From Dyadobacter sp. (GTDB lineage: Bacteria; Bacteroidota; Bacteroidia; Cytophagales; Spirosomataceae): a stretch of 64,000 bases of DNA. The notes under the pieces were generated by a model. That model was not told the origin of the DNA, searched no databases, and saw nothing but the letters and a program-made list of their open reading frames with translations. The translations under genes and the position numbers were made by a program. Of the stretch, positions 2,854-43,299 are shown one piece after another; position 1 is the first letter of the stretch, and the number at the start of each line of letters is the position of its first letter. The stretch lies in contig NZ_JAGIAS010000001.1 of assembly GCF_017744695.1 (NCBI RefSeq), forward strand, positions 835,013-899,012, read 5' to 3'.

Positions 2854-3058
2854 TGGTAGAAGTTAATGAGTGAATGAAAGGTCAGATTTGGTCAGTGTTG
2901 TCAAGTATTGTCAAGTATTGTCAGGTGTGGTCAGCAATAGTCAGGCATGGTTAGATATGTTCAGGAATAGTCAGACATAGAGTCAAATCAGTATCTAACA
3001 ATAATTGACAATACTTGACTACACCTGACAATACTTGACTACACATGACAATCGAAGA
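2854..3058. repeat. Phased 10-bp degenerate repeats with inverted second arm
   Basis: The whole gap between two minus-strand genes is repetitive. From about 2881 at least ten units follow one another every 10 bases (TCAAGTATTG, TCAAGTATTG, TCAGGTGTGG, TCAGCAATAG, TCAGGCATGG and so on). From about 3003 some six units appear in reverse complement (CAATACTTGA, CTACACCTGA). The two arms can pair into a long imperfect hairpin. It begins with a GAGTGAATG-type unit whose complement recurs at 30.9 kb. No ORF is present. Confidence 0.85.
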
Positions 3059-30837: not shown

Positions 30838-30932
30838 TTGTTTTGCTTTAAGCTGTAAGCCATAGGCTTTAAGCCCTTATTATTCAATCATTCACTCATT
30901 CGCAATTCACTCATTCACTCATTCAAAATTCA
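30838..30932. repeat. GCTTTAAGC-type and ATTCACTC 8-bp repeats
   Basis: Between the isomerase and DeoR genes, GCTTTAAGCTGTAAGCCATA and GGCTTTAAGC match the element at 22.8 kb. They are followed by at least four ATTCACTC-type 8-bp units (TCATTCACTCATTC repeated). The complementary unit GAGTGAATG occurs at the edge of the 2.9 kb element. No ORF is present. Confidence 0.7.
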
Positions 30933-31700
30933 CTACCCCGCAATGATCAACTCAATCTCGTTATCGTGAAACAACTGCTGAAACTTCTCCTCGATCCCCG
31001 CATCCGTAATGATGTAGTCGATCAGCGAAAGGGCCCCTAAGCTCGCGAATGCGCTTTTTCCTACTTTGGTCGAATCGGCTACGAGATAAGTCGTGTCCGC
31101 GGCGTCGATCATCGCCTTTTTCACGACGAGATCAGCGATACTCGGGTAGGTTAGCCCGGCTTTCAGCGACAATCCTGCTGTGGCGAGGAACAACTTCTGC
31201 ACATTCAATCCTTTGAAAAAATCGGCCGCTTTCTGGCCGGTCAGCGACAAGGTAGGCGGCTTGAATTCGCCTCCGGTCATGATCACCTCGATGCCCGTTT
31301 CTGCCCCCAAAATCAATGCGATATTCAGCGCATTCGTGATCACCGTCAGGTGCTTGTTGCTGCCACGCAGCTTCTTCGCGATCTCCGTCGTGGTCGAACC
31401 CGAATCGAGGATAATCGTATCGCCGTTGGAAATAAATTCCAGACATTTGGCCGCGATCAACTCCTTTTTATCGAGGTTTTCCTGGTTGGCCAGCGAAAAA
31501 TTGCGCACCTGGTCTTCGACATTTTTCAAAAACGCCCCGCCGTGCTCCTTGATCACCAGGCCGTCCTTTTCAAGCTTGTCCAGATCCTGCCGGATGGTCA
31601 CTTCGGTCACTTTAAAAAGCCTGGCCAGGTCTACCACCTTCGCCGAGCCATCTTCCTTTAACAGTTCAAGTATTTTCTCCCTTCTCTGATTTGCCAGCAT
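30933..31700 (-). CDS. DeoR-family transcriptional regulator
   Basis: A 255-residue regulator. The N-terminal winged HTH (RREKILELLKEDGSAKVVDLARLFKVTEVTIRQDLDKLEKDGLVIKEHGGA) is canonical for DeoR/GlpR proteins, and the C-terminal sugar-phosphate sensing domain shows DTIILDSGSTTTEIAK and TYLVADSTKVGKSAFA. Such proteins usually repress adjacent sugar operons and are released by a phosphorylated intermediate. It is the first gene upstream of the isomerase-transketolase-ABC operon and divergent from the DUF1080 gene, so both are likely targets. Confidence 0.95.
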   Translation of the reverse strand: MLANQRREKILELLKEDGSAKVVDLARLFKVTEVTIRQDLDKLEKDGLVIKEHGGAFLKNVEDQVRNFSLANQENLDKKELIAAKCLEFISNGDTIILDSGSTTTEIAKKLRGSNKHLTVITNALNIALILGAETGIEVIMTGGEFKPPTLSLTGQKAADFFKGLNVQKLFLATAGLSLKAGLTYPSIADLVVKKAMIDAADTTYLVADSTKVGKSAFASLGALSLIDYIITDAGIEEKFQQLFHDNEIELIIAG

Positions 31701-37193: not shown

Positions 37194-38552
37194 CTATTTT
37201 TCCAACACCAAAACCCAGTCATTCCCGTTTCTAACCTCCCCGGGCGGGTTAAATGTTTTAATGCCTTTGTTTTCAATTTTTCCTAAAATCCGGGTTTGGC
37301 CGGTGCGCGGGTCGTACCAGCTGGCCTGCACCTCGGCACCGCCGATTTTCCCCATGCGGATCTTCATATCCCGTCCATTCCAGGTATAAATCAAAGCATA
37401 ATCCTTACCCCGCGTCGCAAGCAGGCGATCGTACCGCTCGCCGTTTTCAGCGATCAGTGACTGGTCGGGGACCCGTTCGAAGTAGGGTTTCGAGAGCATT
37501 AATTTTTTCAAATGCATCATTTGGCCTGCCCCGGGGTCGTCAATGGCTTCCTCCCAAGAGGGTAGTTTAGGGTCTCTCGCATATCGCATTTGCATCACCC
37601 CATTGTTCCCGTATGTGAACCCGCAGGCACCCGCGAACACCGACCAATAAGCATATCGCCGCACATCGTCGGCCGTCCACACGGGCAGCGTTTTGTCGTG
37701 CAGGCCATGCCAGATGTTCTCATAGGAAGGCTCACCATCGAGCACGGGTTTTACAGGTGTGCGGGCATAATCAGCTTCCACATAACGCCAGTTATCCTCG
37801 CCGTAACGCAAATCTTTGGGGTCGTTATCCTGCGCATACGTGCGATGCCCCGACTGGAACATGTTGAAATCCAGCCACAGCCGGTCATGAAACCATTTCG
37901 AAGACTGCATTCTGCCAAACGGATGGAAAGTAATGAGATGGTTCGGATCTTCGGCACGCAATGTGCTGCCGATCGCCTCCCAGACCTCAGGCACAACATC
38001 CCCCTGAATATCCCCTCCGTTAATCCACACAATATTCGGCCGATCGCGATAGCGCCTCGCCAAAAACTGTGCGTAAGCCTTCGCCTGCGCCGCGCTGGTC
38101 TTCCCATTCTTCACAGCATTCCCCCAAATGGGTACCATACCAATTTGGATACCCTTTTCCGCAGCCTTTCCTACAATGTAATCTATGTGGTCCCAATAGT
38201 CGTATTGTTCCTGATTCTCAAACGCACTCCCTTCTGTCACTTTTGGGATGCCCAAATCATGGTTTGTCAATGCGGAATCGCCGTACACATTTACCGTACG
38301 TAATGCCTGCACCACCATTACCTGCACCACGTTGAAGCCTTTTTGTTGCCGATCGGCCAGGTAGCGATCGGCCTCCTCGCGGGTAAGCCGGTTAAAAAGC
38401 AGCCAGCCGGTGTCAGCAAGCCAAAAGAACGGCTGTCCGTTCTGGTCTGTGAAAAACCGTTTGTTCTCCGAGATTTTCAGCGACTGGCTATAAACAGGCT
38501 TTGTGCCGGCGATGATACCGGCACAAAGCAGCGCCAGGAGTTTAAAGTTCAT
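37194..38552 (-). CDS. GH140 (apiosidase family, DUF4038) enzyme
   Basis: A 452-residue exported protein with the GH140/DUF4038 plan: SLKISENKRFFTDQNGQPFFWLADTGWLLFNRLTREEADRYLADRQQKGF, an N-terminal signature strong enough to place it. A TIM barrel follows with IVWINGGDIQGD (about 175-186) and VLDGEPSYENIWHG (270-283), which carry the likely catalytic carboxylates, and a C-terminal beta-sandwich (putative collagen-binding domain). The founding GH140 enzyme cleaves D-apiose linkages in rhamnogalacturonan II. It is separated from SusD by a long repeat spacer and coupled to the sialidase-like and GH127 genes. Confidence 0.92.
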   Translation of the reverse strand: MNFKLLALLCAGIIAGTKPVYSQSLKISENKRFFTDQNGQPFFWLADTGWLLFNRLTREEADRYLADRQQKGFNVVQVMVVQALRTVNVYGDSALTNHDLGIPKVTEGSAFENQEQYDYWDHIDYIVGKAAEKGIQIGMVPIWGNAVKNGKTSAAQAKAYAQFLARRYRDRPNIVWINGGDIQGDVVPEVWEAIGSTLRAEDPNHLITFHPFGRMQSSKWFHDRLWLDFNMFQSGHRTYAQDNDPKDLRYGEDNWRYVEADYARTPVKPVLDGEPSYENIWHGLHDKTLPVWTADDVRRYAYWSVFAGACGFTYGNNGVMQMRYARDPKLPSWEEAIDDPGAGQMMHLKKLMLSKPYFERVPDQSLIAENGERYDRLLATRGKDYALIYTWNGRDMKIRMGKIGGAEVQASWYDPRTGQTRILGKIENKGIKTFNPPGEVRNGNDWVLVLEK

Positions 38553-38711
38553 GAGTTTAGAGTTTAGGAGTTCATGAGTCTAGAGTTCATGAGTTTAGAG
38601 TTTAAGAGTTTAAGAGTTTAAGAGTTTAAGAGTTCATGAGTCCAGAGTTTAAGAATTTACAGTTTATGAGTTCAGAGCTCCTTAACTCTAAACTCATAAA
38701 CTCATGAACTC
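38553..38711. repeat. Degenerate 7/8-bp AGTTTAAG/AGTTCATG repeat spacer
   Basis: The entire 159-base gap between SusD and GH140 consists of about 14 direct units of GAGTTTAA, GAGTTCAT or GAGTTTA, then inverted units AACTCTAAACTCATAAACTC. The inverted arm can pair with the direct arm to form a long hairpin. The unit overlaps the start codon region of GH140 (GTTCATGAG). Nothing else is encoded. Confidence 0.9.
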
Positions 38712-40142
38712 TTAATACCCTGCATTCTGCGTAATCTTGGCGTTCTGGTCCCTGACGATATTCGGAATCGGGAAAATAAGCTTGTTCTGCGTCACGGGCT
38801 TACCTTTCGCCGTCAATACATCGACCACGCGATTGGTACGCTTCAAATCAAACCAGCGGTGGAATTCGAATGCAAGCTCCACGCGGCGCTCGTGCTCTAC
38901 GGCCAATGCCACGGTGCTGTATTTGGCTGGATAACCGGCTTCTCCGTACAACGGCAATCCGGCGCGTTTGCGTACCTGGTTCAGGTAAGTGGCGTCGCCG
39001 GTGGCTTCCGAGAGTAACAGCAGCAGGTCTGCGTAGCGCAACACCATGAAGTTGTTATTGGCAGCAATGTTTTGGTTAATCAGAGGTGCAGTTTTATCCT
39101 GCCATTTTTTAGGGAATTTGGTTTTGGTAAAATTCCCCTTTGCATCAGTAAAGCCCGTGTCGATCGACGCTTCGCGGCGGCCGTCTCCTTTTTCGTATTC
39201 ATTCCAGATATCTTCCACCACCTGGTTCATGCCGGCGCCATAAAAGCCCAATGCATTGGAATTAGGGAAAAATTCGAGATAGTAGTTGCTGTAAGGAGAG
39301 GTCGCCGAACCTCCGAGGAACTGGATTTCGAAGATCGACTCTTTCGTATTCTTGTTCTTGGCATCCCAAAGTGAGATAAACGTGGGCAGCAAATCATACT
39401 GTTTGCTATCGTATACTTCTTTCAGCTCCTTCACACCGTTAGCCTTGTCGCCCGTTGTGAGGTAAACTTTTCCAAGCAATACCTGCGCCGCTCCTTTGGT
39501 AGCCCGCCCGGCAATCGCCTGGGTAGCCGGCAGTTTGGATTTTGCGTCGACAAGGTCTTTCGTGATTTGCGCATAGATTTCGGTCGCCGGCGTACGCAAA
39601 ATATCGTAGGCTTCTGCCGCGCTCACCGGACGCGTTACCAGCGGCACATCGCCCCAGAGCTGCACCATATTGAAGTAATACAACGAGCGCAGGAAGAGCA
39701 TTTCGCCCTGGGTCTGGGCTTTGTAGGTAGCGTCGAGGTCGGTATTCTGGATTTTGTCGAGAATGATGTTGATGTTGTAGATCGAGCGGTAGAAATCCTG
39801 CCAGAATTGGTACACCATTGTGTTCGCAGGCGCGAGCGTGTAGTCGCGGAACTGCCATTTATCGGCCTGGTTGCCCGAAATGTTGTAGATCGTGACGTTA
39901 TCCGACATCAGCTCGCCGGCGTAGGAAACGGGCCCCTGCGGGTGGTACACGGTGTAAAGCGTGTTGTACGCCGCATTGGCCGCGAGGTCGAAATCCGATT
40001 TTGTTTTATAAAAATTCTCGGCGCTGGGATTGGATACCGGCGCCAGTTCGAGGAATGAGTCCTTGCAGCTCCAACTTGTGGCCATGAGTGCTGCGAGCGT
40101 GATCGATTTTATGATTGTTTTCATCAGTCTTCGTGTTTTCAT
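38712..40142 (-). CDS. SusD/RagB-type glycan-binding lipoprotein (locus 2)
   Basis: The ATG at 40142 (MKTRRLMKTIIKSITLAALMATSWSCKD) lies 4 bases after the SusC stop; the ATG at 40124 is also possible. Lipobox ATSWSC. The 476-residue protein shows the SusD helix EMLFLRSLYYFNMVQLWGDVPLVTRPV, RATKGAAQVLLGKVYLTTGD, the C-terminal LALAVEHERRVELAFEFHRWFDLKR and the closing IPNIVRDQNAKITQNAGY. It is the surface glycan-binding partner of the adjacent SusC and heads the GH140/GH127 enzyme group, so it probably binds oligosaccharides from apiose-containing pectin. Confidence 0.95.
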   Translation of the reverse strand: MKTRRLMKTIIKSITLAALMATSWSCKDSFLELAPVSNPSAENFYKTKSDFDLAANAAYNTLYTVYHPQGPVSYAGELMSDNVTIYNISGNQADKWQFRDYTLAPANTMVYQFWQDFYRSIYNINIILDKIQNTDLDATYKAQTQGEMLFLRSLYYFNMVQLWGDVPLVTRPVSAAEAYDILRTPATEIYAQITKDLVDAKSKLPATQAIAGRATKGAAQVLLGKVYLTTGDKANGVKELKEVYDSKQYDLLPTFISLWDAKNKNTKESIFEIQFLGGSATSPYSNYYLEFFPNSNALGFYGAGMNQVVEDIWNEYEKGDGRREASIDTGFTDAKGNFTKTKFPKKWQDKTAPLINQNIAANNNFMVLRYADLLLLLSEATGDATYLNQVRKRAGLPLYGEAGYPAKYSTVALAVEHERRVELAFEFHRWFDLKRTNRVVDVLTAKGKPVTQNKLIFPIPNIVRDQNAKITQNAGY

Positions 40143-40146
40143 GGCA

Positions 40147-43100
40147 TTAGAAATCAGCCTTAATCCCAACAGTAATCACCCTGGGCAACGGATAAGATCC
40201 ATAGTCCACCCCCTGGAATGCCCCCGGCACCGGTGCGTTACCGCTGCTGTACGAACCCGAAGTTTCCATGCTCGACGAATAGGAAGTCGTTCCATAAGTC
40301 GTATTCTCGGGATCGTAACCAATGTATTTGCTCCACAAATGCACATTCTCCGCATTCACATACACCCGCGCACCGCTCACTTTCAGCTTGGAAACCCATT
40401 TCGCAGGCACCGCGTACGACACGCGCACGTTCCGCAATCGCACGAACGAAGCATCCTCGACCCAGTAAGAAGAAAATTGCTTTTGCAATCCGAGATAATT
40501 CACCGACGGCTTGAAATGCCTTCCGTCACCAGGGTTACTCTCCGACCGCCAGTAGTTATACATGTTGGCAAAGAAATTCCGCCCATTGTCCCAGGTACCC
40601 AGGTAGCGCACATTGTTATTCGCGATCTCGCCACCAAATGAGCCTTGAAACAGGAACGATAACTCAAAACCTTTGTAACCCACCGTGTTGGTAATACCGG
40701 CTGTAAAATTCGGCTGATAGTTACCCAGGATTGTCCGGTCGGCATCGCTGATCTTGCCGTCGCCGTTCACGTCGCGCACTTTCGGGTCACCTGGCGTAGT
40801 GCTGCTGTGGTGCGGATAGGCATCGATTTCCGCCTGATTTTTGAAAACGCCATCGAAAATGTAGCCGTAGAAATTCGAAACCGGCTGGCCTACTTCGGTG
40901 CGCACCGTCACGACGTTGTCGACGTACTGGATCGGGGCATTGCCCGGACCGAGTTGCAGCACTTTGTTCCGGTTCCTGGAAATATTGAAATCCGTTGTCC
41001 AGGTCACTGCGCCCGTCAGATTTTTGGTAGAAATATTCAATTCTACACCACGGTTACGCATTTTTCCGATGTTGGTCAACTGGGTAGAGAACCCGGTAAT
41101 ATCCGGCACCGGCACAAAAAGGAGCATATCCCGGGTGAGCGAGTTGTAATACTCTGCCGAAAGATTAATGCGGTTATTAAAAAGACCTAGATCCACACCT
41201 ACGTTGAACTGATTGGTCTTCTCCCATTTCAGGTTCGGGTTTGCCAGGCTACTCACTTTCAAACCATTGGCCAGATTGGAGCCGTTTACATACTGCGCCG
41301 CAGCCAGCAGACTGATCGCCCCGTAGTTAGGGATCTGGTTGTTACCCGTCACACCGTAGCTTGCACGAAGTTTCAGGTTGTTCACCGCTGTTACTCCCGA
41401 CATGAATGCTTCATCCGAAAGCAACCAACCCGCCGATACCGAAGGGAAATATCCCCATTTATTGTTTTCACCAAAGCGCGACATCCCATCGCGGCGCAAA
41501 GCACCCGTAAGGAAATACCTGTTTTTGAAGTTGTACTGAATCCTTGCCAGGTACGACAGCAGTGACCACTCACTGGCCGTGGTATTGCCGGCCGTCACGG
41601 TTCCCGCATTCAGCGTATGCACCAGGTCGTTCGGAAAGTTGTTGGCGGCTACGTACATCGTTTCGTCCCGCTGTTTTTGGCTGGTATAGCCGAGCAGACC
41701 GGTAAATGCGTGCTCGCCGAACTTCTTGTCGTAAGTCAAAGTATTCTCACTTAGCCAGTTTAGCATGTAAGCATCGCTTGCATTGCCTTGCGCGGCCAGC
41801 ACGGCGGAGTAGCCATATTTCTGTTTATCGTTCCAGTAAAAATTATTCCGCATATTGTACAGGTTACCACTCAGGCTGGTGCGAAACCGCAGACCGTCGA
41901 TGAACTCGTATTCCAGGTAGCCTGTCGCCAGGGTGTTGAACGACTTCCGACCCTTATCGACTTCGCGTGTGAGCGAGTACGGGTGCCAGAGGTTCATGTC
42001 CGCATATTGCGTAAACCGGAACCAGGTCGAATTCGGGTCGCGGAAGCCCAGGTTGCCGTTTTCATTGTAAACCGGAAAAATGGGGTCGCTTTGCAGGCCA
42101 AGGCTGATTACATCGCTCTTACCCTGCGTCCCCTCGGTGCGGTCGAAAATCGAAGTTATACCTATATTCAACCCAGCGCTGAGCCGCCTGGAAATCTGAG
42201 TCTTAAGATTCGACCTGAGTGCAAGGCGTTTGTAATAGTTAGCATCGAGAACCGCCGTTTGGTCCAGATAGGCACCCGAAAACATGTACTGCGTCTTCTC
42301 GGTACCGCCAGTCACTGTTACTTGCGCATTGAACGACGGTGCGGTGCGGAACATGACGTTCTGCCAGTCGGTACCTTTTCCGAATTGCTGCGGATTGGTT
42401 GTAAAATCCTCCGGGATACGCAATGTCGTCGGACGGGCACTGTTCGGATCACTCGCATTCCCGCCCTGGGCGGTCCAGGCATTGTTTTTAGCATCAATAT
42501 AGGTTTCGATAAACTGCTGCGCATCCATCATTTTAACGCGGCGCGTCACCTTTTGCGAGCCATATTCGACGTTTGCGCTCACATTCACCTTGCCGGGCTT
42601 ACCCGTTTTGGTCGTAACGATTATCACTCCGCTCGAACCGCGCGAACCGTAAATAGCTGCCGATGACGCATCTTTCAGCACTTCGATCGACTCGATATCC
42701 TGGGGGTTGATCAGGTTGAGGTTGAAATTTTCCAGCGGAACCCCATCCACAACGATCAGTGGGTTGGTACCTGCGGTGATCGAACTGATACCACGGATTT
42801 TGATCACCGGTGAAGCCCCCGGCGCACCCTGCGATTGCGAAATATTTACCCCCGGCAACGTTCCGGCCAGCGACTGGCTGACATTACTGAATGAACGATC
42901 CTTAAACTTATCATAGTTAACGGAAATCACCGCCCCGGTCACCGCCCGCTTACTCTGCGTTCCGTAACCGACCACTACCACCTCTTCCAGCGATTTGTTT
43001 TCGGGCACAAGCCTTACAGCGATGTCGGTACGTGCACCGACGATTTCCTCCACGGATTTGTACCCCACAAAACTGAATACCAGCACAGTAGCCTGGTCCG

Positions 43101-43299
43101 GCACGTCGATCTGGAATGCGCCGTCCGAATTGGTGGTCGTTCCACGTTGCGTGCCCTTGATCACGACGCTCACACCCGGCAGCGGATCAGCATCGCTCAC
43201 ACCCGTCACCCTGCCCTTCACGGACAGCGTCTGCGCATGTACCGCCGGGAGTACCAGCAGGCATACCAGCATGATGCGTAAGAGTTGTTTCATAAACAT
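40147..43299 (-). CDS. SusC/RagA TonB-dependent transporter (locus 2)
   Basis: A 1,050-residue receptor (ATG at 43299, or 43293). After the signal peptide (LVCLLVLPAVHAQ) it begins directly with the carboxypeptidase-like domain (GRVTGVSDADPLPGVSVVIKGTQRGT), with no STN domain, so it is not tied to FecR signalling. EEVVVVGYGTQSKRAVTGAV and the plug GSRGSSGVIIVTTKTGKPG follow, then the barrel ending YGSYPLPRVITVGIKADF. It imports oligosaccharides with its SusD. The AT-rich 240 bases upstream contain its promoter, but I cannot fix the elements. Confidence 0.95.
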   Translation of the reverse strand: MFMKQLLRIMLVCLLVLPAVHAQTLSVKGRVTGVSDADPLPGVSVVIKGTQRGTTTNSDGAFQIDVPDQATVLVFSFVGYKSVEEIVGARTDIAVRLVPENKSLEEVVVVGYGTQSKRAVTGAVISVNYDKFKDRSFSNVSQSLAGTLPGVNISQSQGAPGASPVIKIRGISSITAGTNPLIVVDGVPLENFNLNLINPQDIESIEVLKDASSAAIYGSRGSSGVIIVTTKTGKPGKVNVSANVEYGSQKVTRRVKMMDAQQFIETYIDAKNNAWTAQGGNASDPNSARPTTLRIPEDFTTNPQQFGKGTDWQNVMFRTAPSFNAQVTVTGGTEKTQYMFSGAYLDQTAVLDANYYKRLALRSNLKTQISRRLSAGLNIGITSIFDRTEGTQGKSDVISLGLQSDPIFPVYNENGNLGFRDPNSTWFRFTQYADMNLWHPYSLTREVDKGRKSFNTLATGYLEYEFIDGLRFRTSLSGNLYNMRNNFYWNDKQKYGYSAVLAAQGNASDAYMLNWLSENTLTYDKKFGEHAFTGLLGYTSQKQRDETMYVAANNFPNDLVHTLNAGTVTAGNTTASEWSLLSYLARIQYNFKNRYFLTGALRRDGMSRFGENNKWGYFPSVSAGWLLSDEAFMSGVTAVNNLKLRASYGVTGNNQIPNYGAISLLAAAQYVNGSNLANGLKVSSLANPNLKWEKTNQFNVGVDLGLFNNRINLSAEYYNSLTRDMLLFVPVPDITGFSTQLTNIGKMRNRGVELNISTKNLTGAVTWTTDFNISRNRNKVLQLGPGNAPIQYVDNVVTVRTEVGQPVSNFYGYIFDGVFKNQAEIDAYPHHSSTTPGDPKVRDVNGDGKISDADRTILGNYQPNFTAGITNTVGYKGFELSFLFQGSFGGEIANNNVRYLGTWDNGRNFFANMYNYWRSESNPGDGRHFKPSVNYLGLQKQFSSYWVEDASFVRLRNVRVSYAVPAKWVSKLKVSGARVYVNAENVHLWSKYIGYDPENTTYGTTSYSSSMETSGSYSSGNAPVPGAFQGVDYGSYPLPRVITVGIKADF

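Follow-up and report, generated by a model that had tools for sequence, protein, structure and literature searches.

Palindromes of the REP/BIME type occur in many copies in the 3′ flanks of genes and between the genes of operons, can stabilize upstream mRNA, and are linked to RAYT transposases. Short tandem arrays in bacterial spacers are usually discussed as slippage switches. The GGGAATC heptamers of Xanthomonas (GGGGAYT in Nostoc) are short tandem units of degenerate sequence scattered over spacers, where many form convergent inverted pairs; their distance to the upstream gene averages 28 nt and is smaller than that to the next gene. They are rare between divergent genes (7 to 8%), differ in length and sequence among related species at the same place, and consist of a G-rich word able to form G-quadruplexes (PMC4692102). 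Arrays of the heptamer TAACTGA, found in Beggiatoaceae, cyanobacteria, and a few Bacteroidetes, are intergenic and patchy among relatives, and orthologous spacers free of the repeat are shorter. They are built of one word, with 169 direct sets versus 1 indirect set in the main genome, and mostly lie just upstream of start codons (PMC4679880). For Dyadobacter, Spirosoma, or their family, we found no description of intergenic arrays in the open literature.

Within the 64,000-nucleotide stretch of DNA analyzed here (the window), which comes from a soil bacterium of the genus Dyadobacter, we investigated the spacer between a susD-like gene and a GH140 apiosidase gene. The locus further contains a GH127 aceric acid hydrolase and a BT_1020-like propeller protein. 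Judged by gene content, it is a polysaccharide utilization locus of the rhamnogalacturonan-II type, because these two occur together with susC and GH140. The spacer (159 bp) is the exact interval from the susD stop codon (38712) to the GH140 start codon (38552), and a count on the plus strand bore out the preliminary description of its coordinates and of its approximately 14 direct, GAGTT-type units and 4 inverted units, spaced 7 or 8 bases apart. Tandem Repeats Finder returned periods of 8, 15, and 23 over positions 38538 to 38677 and a reverse-complement block at 38684 to 38715. The best autocorrelation of the spacer (lags 5 to 30) was 0.64; 1000 dinucleotide-preserving shuffles averaged 0.36 and reached at most 0.47.

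Units of both orientations are present, as had been noted, but they are not intermixed. They form two opposed blocks, a palindrome that the preliminary description had missed. Read in the gene sense, about four GAGTTCATGAGTTTATG units stand at the susD stop codon, followed by a short center and then by about 14 reverse-complement units that run to the GH140 start. The sense units are, in transcription order, GAGTTCATG-AGTTTATG-AGTTTAG-AGTTAAG, their first base being the base after the susD stop. The repeat does extend to the GH140 start codon, as previously described, and continues about 13 bases into the frame (ATGAACTTTAAACTC), touching the first 5 codons. The spacer is an imperfect palindrome with one block per orientation and not a one-way slippage array.

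Table 1. Coordinates of the repeat arrays and neighboring genes (positions are those of the window)
Feature	Positions	Strand	Basis
susC-like gene, TonB-dependent receptor	40147..43299	-	TIGR04056, E 1.4e-273
susD-like gene, upstream of array	38712..40169	-	Pfam SusD-like_3 / SusD_RagB
Palindromic array of 7- to 8-bp units filling the gap between susD stop and GH140 start	38553..38711	-	Repeat and fold analysis
Predicted near-perfect stem-loop, 19 to 28 pairs, 4-nt loop, directly 3′ of susD stop	38661..38711	-	RNA folding
5′ arm in mRNA: four sense units GAGTTCATGAGTTTATGAGTTTAGAGTTAAG, directly at susD stop	38682..38711	-	GAGT at offsets 0, 8, 16, 23
3′ arm in mRNA: about 14 reverse-complement units TTAAACTC / ATGAACTC / TAAACTC, to GH140 ATG	38553..38675	-	
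Four perfect adjacent AGTTTAAG units	38599..38630	not assigned	Sequence
Repeat units inside GH140 reading frame (signal peptide MNFKL)	38540..38552	-	Sequence, orthologue comparison
GH140 apiosidase gene, downstream of array	37194..38552	-	Pfam Apiosidase, E 2.5e-117
Second palindromic array: 10-mer GTCARGTRTN then complement, behind stop codon, between two minus-strand genes	2860..3052		
Third array: 8-mer family GAATGAGT/ATTCACTC, reaching stop codon of DeoR-type gene	30882..30934		

Folding of the spacer RNA gave a z score of about −7.6, with 0 shuffles as good. A scan of this array for intrinsic terminators found none; the stem is rich in A and T and lacks a T run behind it. Scanning the array for sigma-70 promoter-like elements was likewise negative. 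Rfam models had 0 matches in the window at gathering scores, and assignment to a known RNA family was rejected on that ground. The 3′ arm is C-rich and G-poor, with 29 C versus 7 G in the final 110 nt of the spacer and a TC dinucleotide every 7 to 8 nt. Such a composition could point to Rho-dependent attenuation, in which the arm would act as a rut-like loading site that ends some transcripts before GH140. C-over-G windows are also stronger in array spacers than in other spacers (P = 8e-7), and our reading of the consensus words places the C-richer arm second in six of seven word families. However, the antisense strand has a nearly equal excess (P = 1e-5), as expected of any palindrome of such words, the GACCGCCGA family is biased in the opposite direction, and part of the 3′ arm is paired. 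We consider attenuation by Rho very unlikely.

The susD/GH140 spacer was compared across 12 Dyadobacter species, including this one, with one genome per species. In five species (G000, which is the genome described here, G012, G043, G027, and G037), it measures 138 to 190 bp and carries a GAGTT-word array that begins at the susD stop codon and ends at or in the GH140 start codon. In the other seven (G017, G009, G029, G044, G011, G003, and G041), it measures 13 to 55 bp and has no array, with apparent remnants of units in G044 and G003. Despite their differing sequences, strong folds are predicted for all five array-bearing spacers (z, −4.4 to −9.9), whose two arms have changed together; the three short spacers that were folded yielded no strong fold. 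In the more distant relatives G036 and G018, susD is followed by a compact inverted repeat that looks unrelated. Array-present and array-absent states are interleaved on a flanking-gene tree that is largely unresolved. We infer that an ancestral array with several losses is likelier than five gains, because the GAGTT word is rare. Origin by one recent insertion that left a target-site duplication was also considered and set aside, since the array-less spacers are too diverged to show one.

These comparisons bear on the earlier proposal that the array grows by slippage and that its unit number changes within a population, tuning GH140 expression by phase or dose variation. This phase-variation reading is partly supported. 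Growth in copy number is in keeping with the range of spacer lengths between species (13 to 190 bp), with the four perfect adjacent units in this spacer, with an array elsewhere in the genome that has 14.5 perfect copies, and with G012, in which the in-frame expansion of a 15-bp unit pair at the GH140 start has lengthened the signal peptide by 5 residues (MNFKL-LNSKL-LTLL; L032). Simple slippage as the origin, however, does not produce one block of words and then a second block holding their reverse complements, and it leaves unaccounted for both the same words at many loci and the replacement of words at orthologous sites (see below). Nor would this array slip readily, most of its units being too degenerate: the four adjacent units are the only perfect ones, the remainder have 70 to 79% matches, and that stretch is likely the only one apt to slip readily. 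The repeat is not special to the apiosidase operon; the array class is found genome-wide behind all kinds of genes, and there is no promoter-like element here. We regard tuning of GH140 through slippage as highly improbable. Phase-variable simple sequence repeats (contingency loci) consist of near-perfect units in one orientation, from which this array departs in its unit match rates and its two opposed blocks.

The wider distribution of arrays was surveyed in a 1.6-Mb sample of three Dyadobacter species, to which G000 contributed 815 kb and G017 and G009 about 400 kb each. Tandem arrays built from 6- to 30-bp units were present in 48 spacers; shuffled sequence yielded about one array for each genome sample. 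Most derive from about seven word families: GAGTTYAT (8 bp), GAATGANT (8), GTCARGTRTN (10), TAAGCNG (7), GGAGGAA (7 to 9), TCGGCTG (7), and GACCGCC (7). None of the 151 divergent spacers contains an array, although these are the longest class of spacer; all 48 array spacers are co-directional or convergent, and a word search yielded 69 family-in-spacer cases with 0 divergent. Where a spacer has two arms, the complement always follows the word (31 of 31). Arrays start at a median of 9 nt past the stop codon and end 40 nt short of the next start. The GAGTT word was found at 34 loci, at least 29 of them from the genus, of which 28 are co-directional and 4 are convergent; the other 2 came out as divergent from a crude ORF caller applied to 3-kb pieces. 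Predicted RNA folds have a median z of −4.2 in array spacers and about −1 in other spacers. Dispersed words are abundant in this genome (238 GAATGA-word and 199 GTCA-word matches), and some single spacers are mosaics of two or three word families.

Several individual arrays were recorded in this survey. The spacer orthologous to the second array of the window carries the GTCARGTRTN family in G017 as well and measures 22 bp in G009. At window positions 30840 to 30934, a GAATGAGT-type array stands beside an AAGC-type hairpin in one spacer, and the orthologous spacer of G017 contains two other families. At G000:C9 811875-811990 (L023 11875-11990) are 14.5 perfect copies of GAATGATT, which make this array the clearest case of recent tandem expansion and the strongest candidate for true copy-number variation. 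At G000:C9 654734-655161 and 779151-779621, the arms of word arrays flank REP-like palindromes (CCTGTTTATAG... and ATGCCGTTAGGCAT...). A fixed insert, CCGCCGTGGAACGG, is repeated inside GAATGA arrays (L015, L019, L023, L024, and L165), with four in tandem in G041 (L165). The idea that arrays serve to place stop codons in all frames, their units of 7, 8, and 10 bp not being multiples of 3, was rejected, as the GGAGGAA and TCGGC families have no stops. Mobilization by RAYT was likewise rejected, since no word array lies within 1.5 kb of any of five Y1 loci (four strong and one weaker).

Array sites persist between species. Of 22 array sites of this genome, 20 are also array sites in G017, compared with 7 of 199 other spacers (P about 1e-20). 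At 6 of the 20 sites common to G000 and G017, the word families are disjoint. For example, GAATGA arms in G000 correspond to GGAGGAA arms in both G017 and G009 at G000:C9 808531 and again at G000:C9 811823, and AAGC arms in G000 correspond to GACCGCC arms in G017 and G009 at G000:C9 649798. At G000:C9 654734, G000 and G009 have GAATGA arms and G017 has GTCA arms; a similar REP-like palindrome cluster lies inside the G000 and G017 arrays, bracketed by different words. At 8 of the 11 sites where G009 is without an array, its gap is <60 bp, and because these gaps are mostly this short, the arrays often lie within probable operons. Exchange of this kind raises the prospect of interchangeable post-stop hairpins, whose site and structure would be inherited while the word is swapped from a genome-wide set. 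We think this rather unlikely; if true, it would imply either a dedicated mechanism that writes or spreads such palindromes or selection on the hairpin alone.

The word families differ in taxonomic range. Within the bacterial family, the GAATGA family occurs in 22 of the 36 genera and in 74 of the 151 genomes, with control matches at zero in nearly all genomes. The GTCA family is almost restricted to the genus Dyadobacter, and the GAGTT family, present in 15 of 48 Dyadobacter genomes, is hardly seen elsewhere in the phylum. Its word GAGTTTATGAGTTTATG recurs, with 54 matches, in the distant genome G197, from another family of the order, where word and then complement again follow genes (L235 and L238); either horizontal spread or convergence could explain its abundance there.

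A neutral origin combined with selective removal from promoters is a serious rival to any functional explanation of these arrays. They would then be functionless, neutral or selfish palindromic repeats that form or spread between genes and persist only at positions where neither a promoter nor a reading frame is disturbed. Their patchiness at this locus (5 of 12 species), the degeneracy of their units, the recurrence of identical words at many loci, the lack of arrays in divergent spacers, and the mosaics of two or three families all agree with this explanation. A diverging palindrome without function should lose its pairing, yet the five diverged orthologues keep strong hairpins. Moreover, the recurrence of sites with different words asks for a site-level reason, and no mobilizing enzyme lies beside the arrays, the five Y1 transposases having none nearby. 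Serious as it is, we hold this explanation to be somewhat doubtful.

We give an even chance to the array being an intra-operon 3′-end element, a replaceable hairpin by which susCD would be set apart from the genes behind it in transcript stability or in read-through. At the level of sequence comparison, the post-stop position, the palindrome, the persistence of sites, the exchange of words, and gain, loss, and length change between species are established. The spacer is one copy of a genome-wide Dyadobacter class of post-stop palindromic arrays, in which a word of 7 to 10 bp forms a tandem block and then a reverse-complement block a few bases behind a stop codon. The two blocks are predicted to pair in mRNA as a long hairpin, placed here directly behind susD, with a long arm richer in C than in G extending from there to the GH140 start codon. 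This hairpin may protect susCD mRNA against 3′ decay, may reduce read-through, along with translational coupling, into GH140 and later genes, or may do both. Over species time, such arrays expand, shrink, vanish, and exchange words, a turnover that would be tolerated because the arrays keep clear of promoters and reading frames. Against a role as a 3′-end element, 7 of the 12 species manage without an array here, which makes it non-essential; absence from divergent spacers equally fits neutral elements purged from promoters; any palindrome gives a hairpin, whatever its origin; and shared array sites partly reflect common descent. In addition, ordinary terminator-like hairpins adjoin some of the arrays in the genome samples, and none of the intrinsic type is found in this one.

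The array class differs from the slippage switches as which short tandem arrays are usually discussed: it is bipartite and anchored behind stop codons, it is absent from divergent spacers, and its word can change at orthologous sites. It also offers a natural experiment on operon-internal hairpins, with the same genes found with a hairpin, without one, or with the same shape made from unrelated sequence, and it raises the question of the mechanism by which one palindromic array replaces another. Unlike REP/BIME palindromes, the Dyadobacter arrays have no conserved 20- to 40-bp REP unit; they are made of short words in tandem, and none lies beside Y1 transposases. They resemble TAACTGA arrays in being intergenic, short-unit, and patchy, with shorter orthologous spacers where the array is lacking, but they are composed of a word plus its complement and are anchored at the stop codon. 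The closest known system is the GGGAATC heptamer arrays of Xanthomonas, to which the Dyadobacter arrays correspond in their short tandem units in convergent inverted pairs, their position close behind the upstream gene, their scarcity between divergent genes, and their variation between species. In contrast to the one G-tract word of that system, the Dyadobacter words (GAGTTTAT, GAATGAGT, and GTCAGGTATT) lack G tracts, and several words of 7, 8, and 10 bp coexist in one genome, mostly in palindromic arrays, with swaps at orthologous sites.
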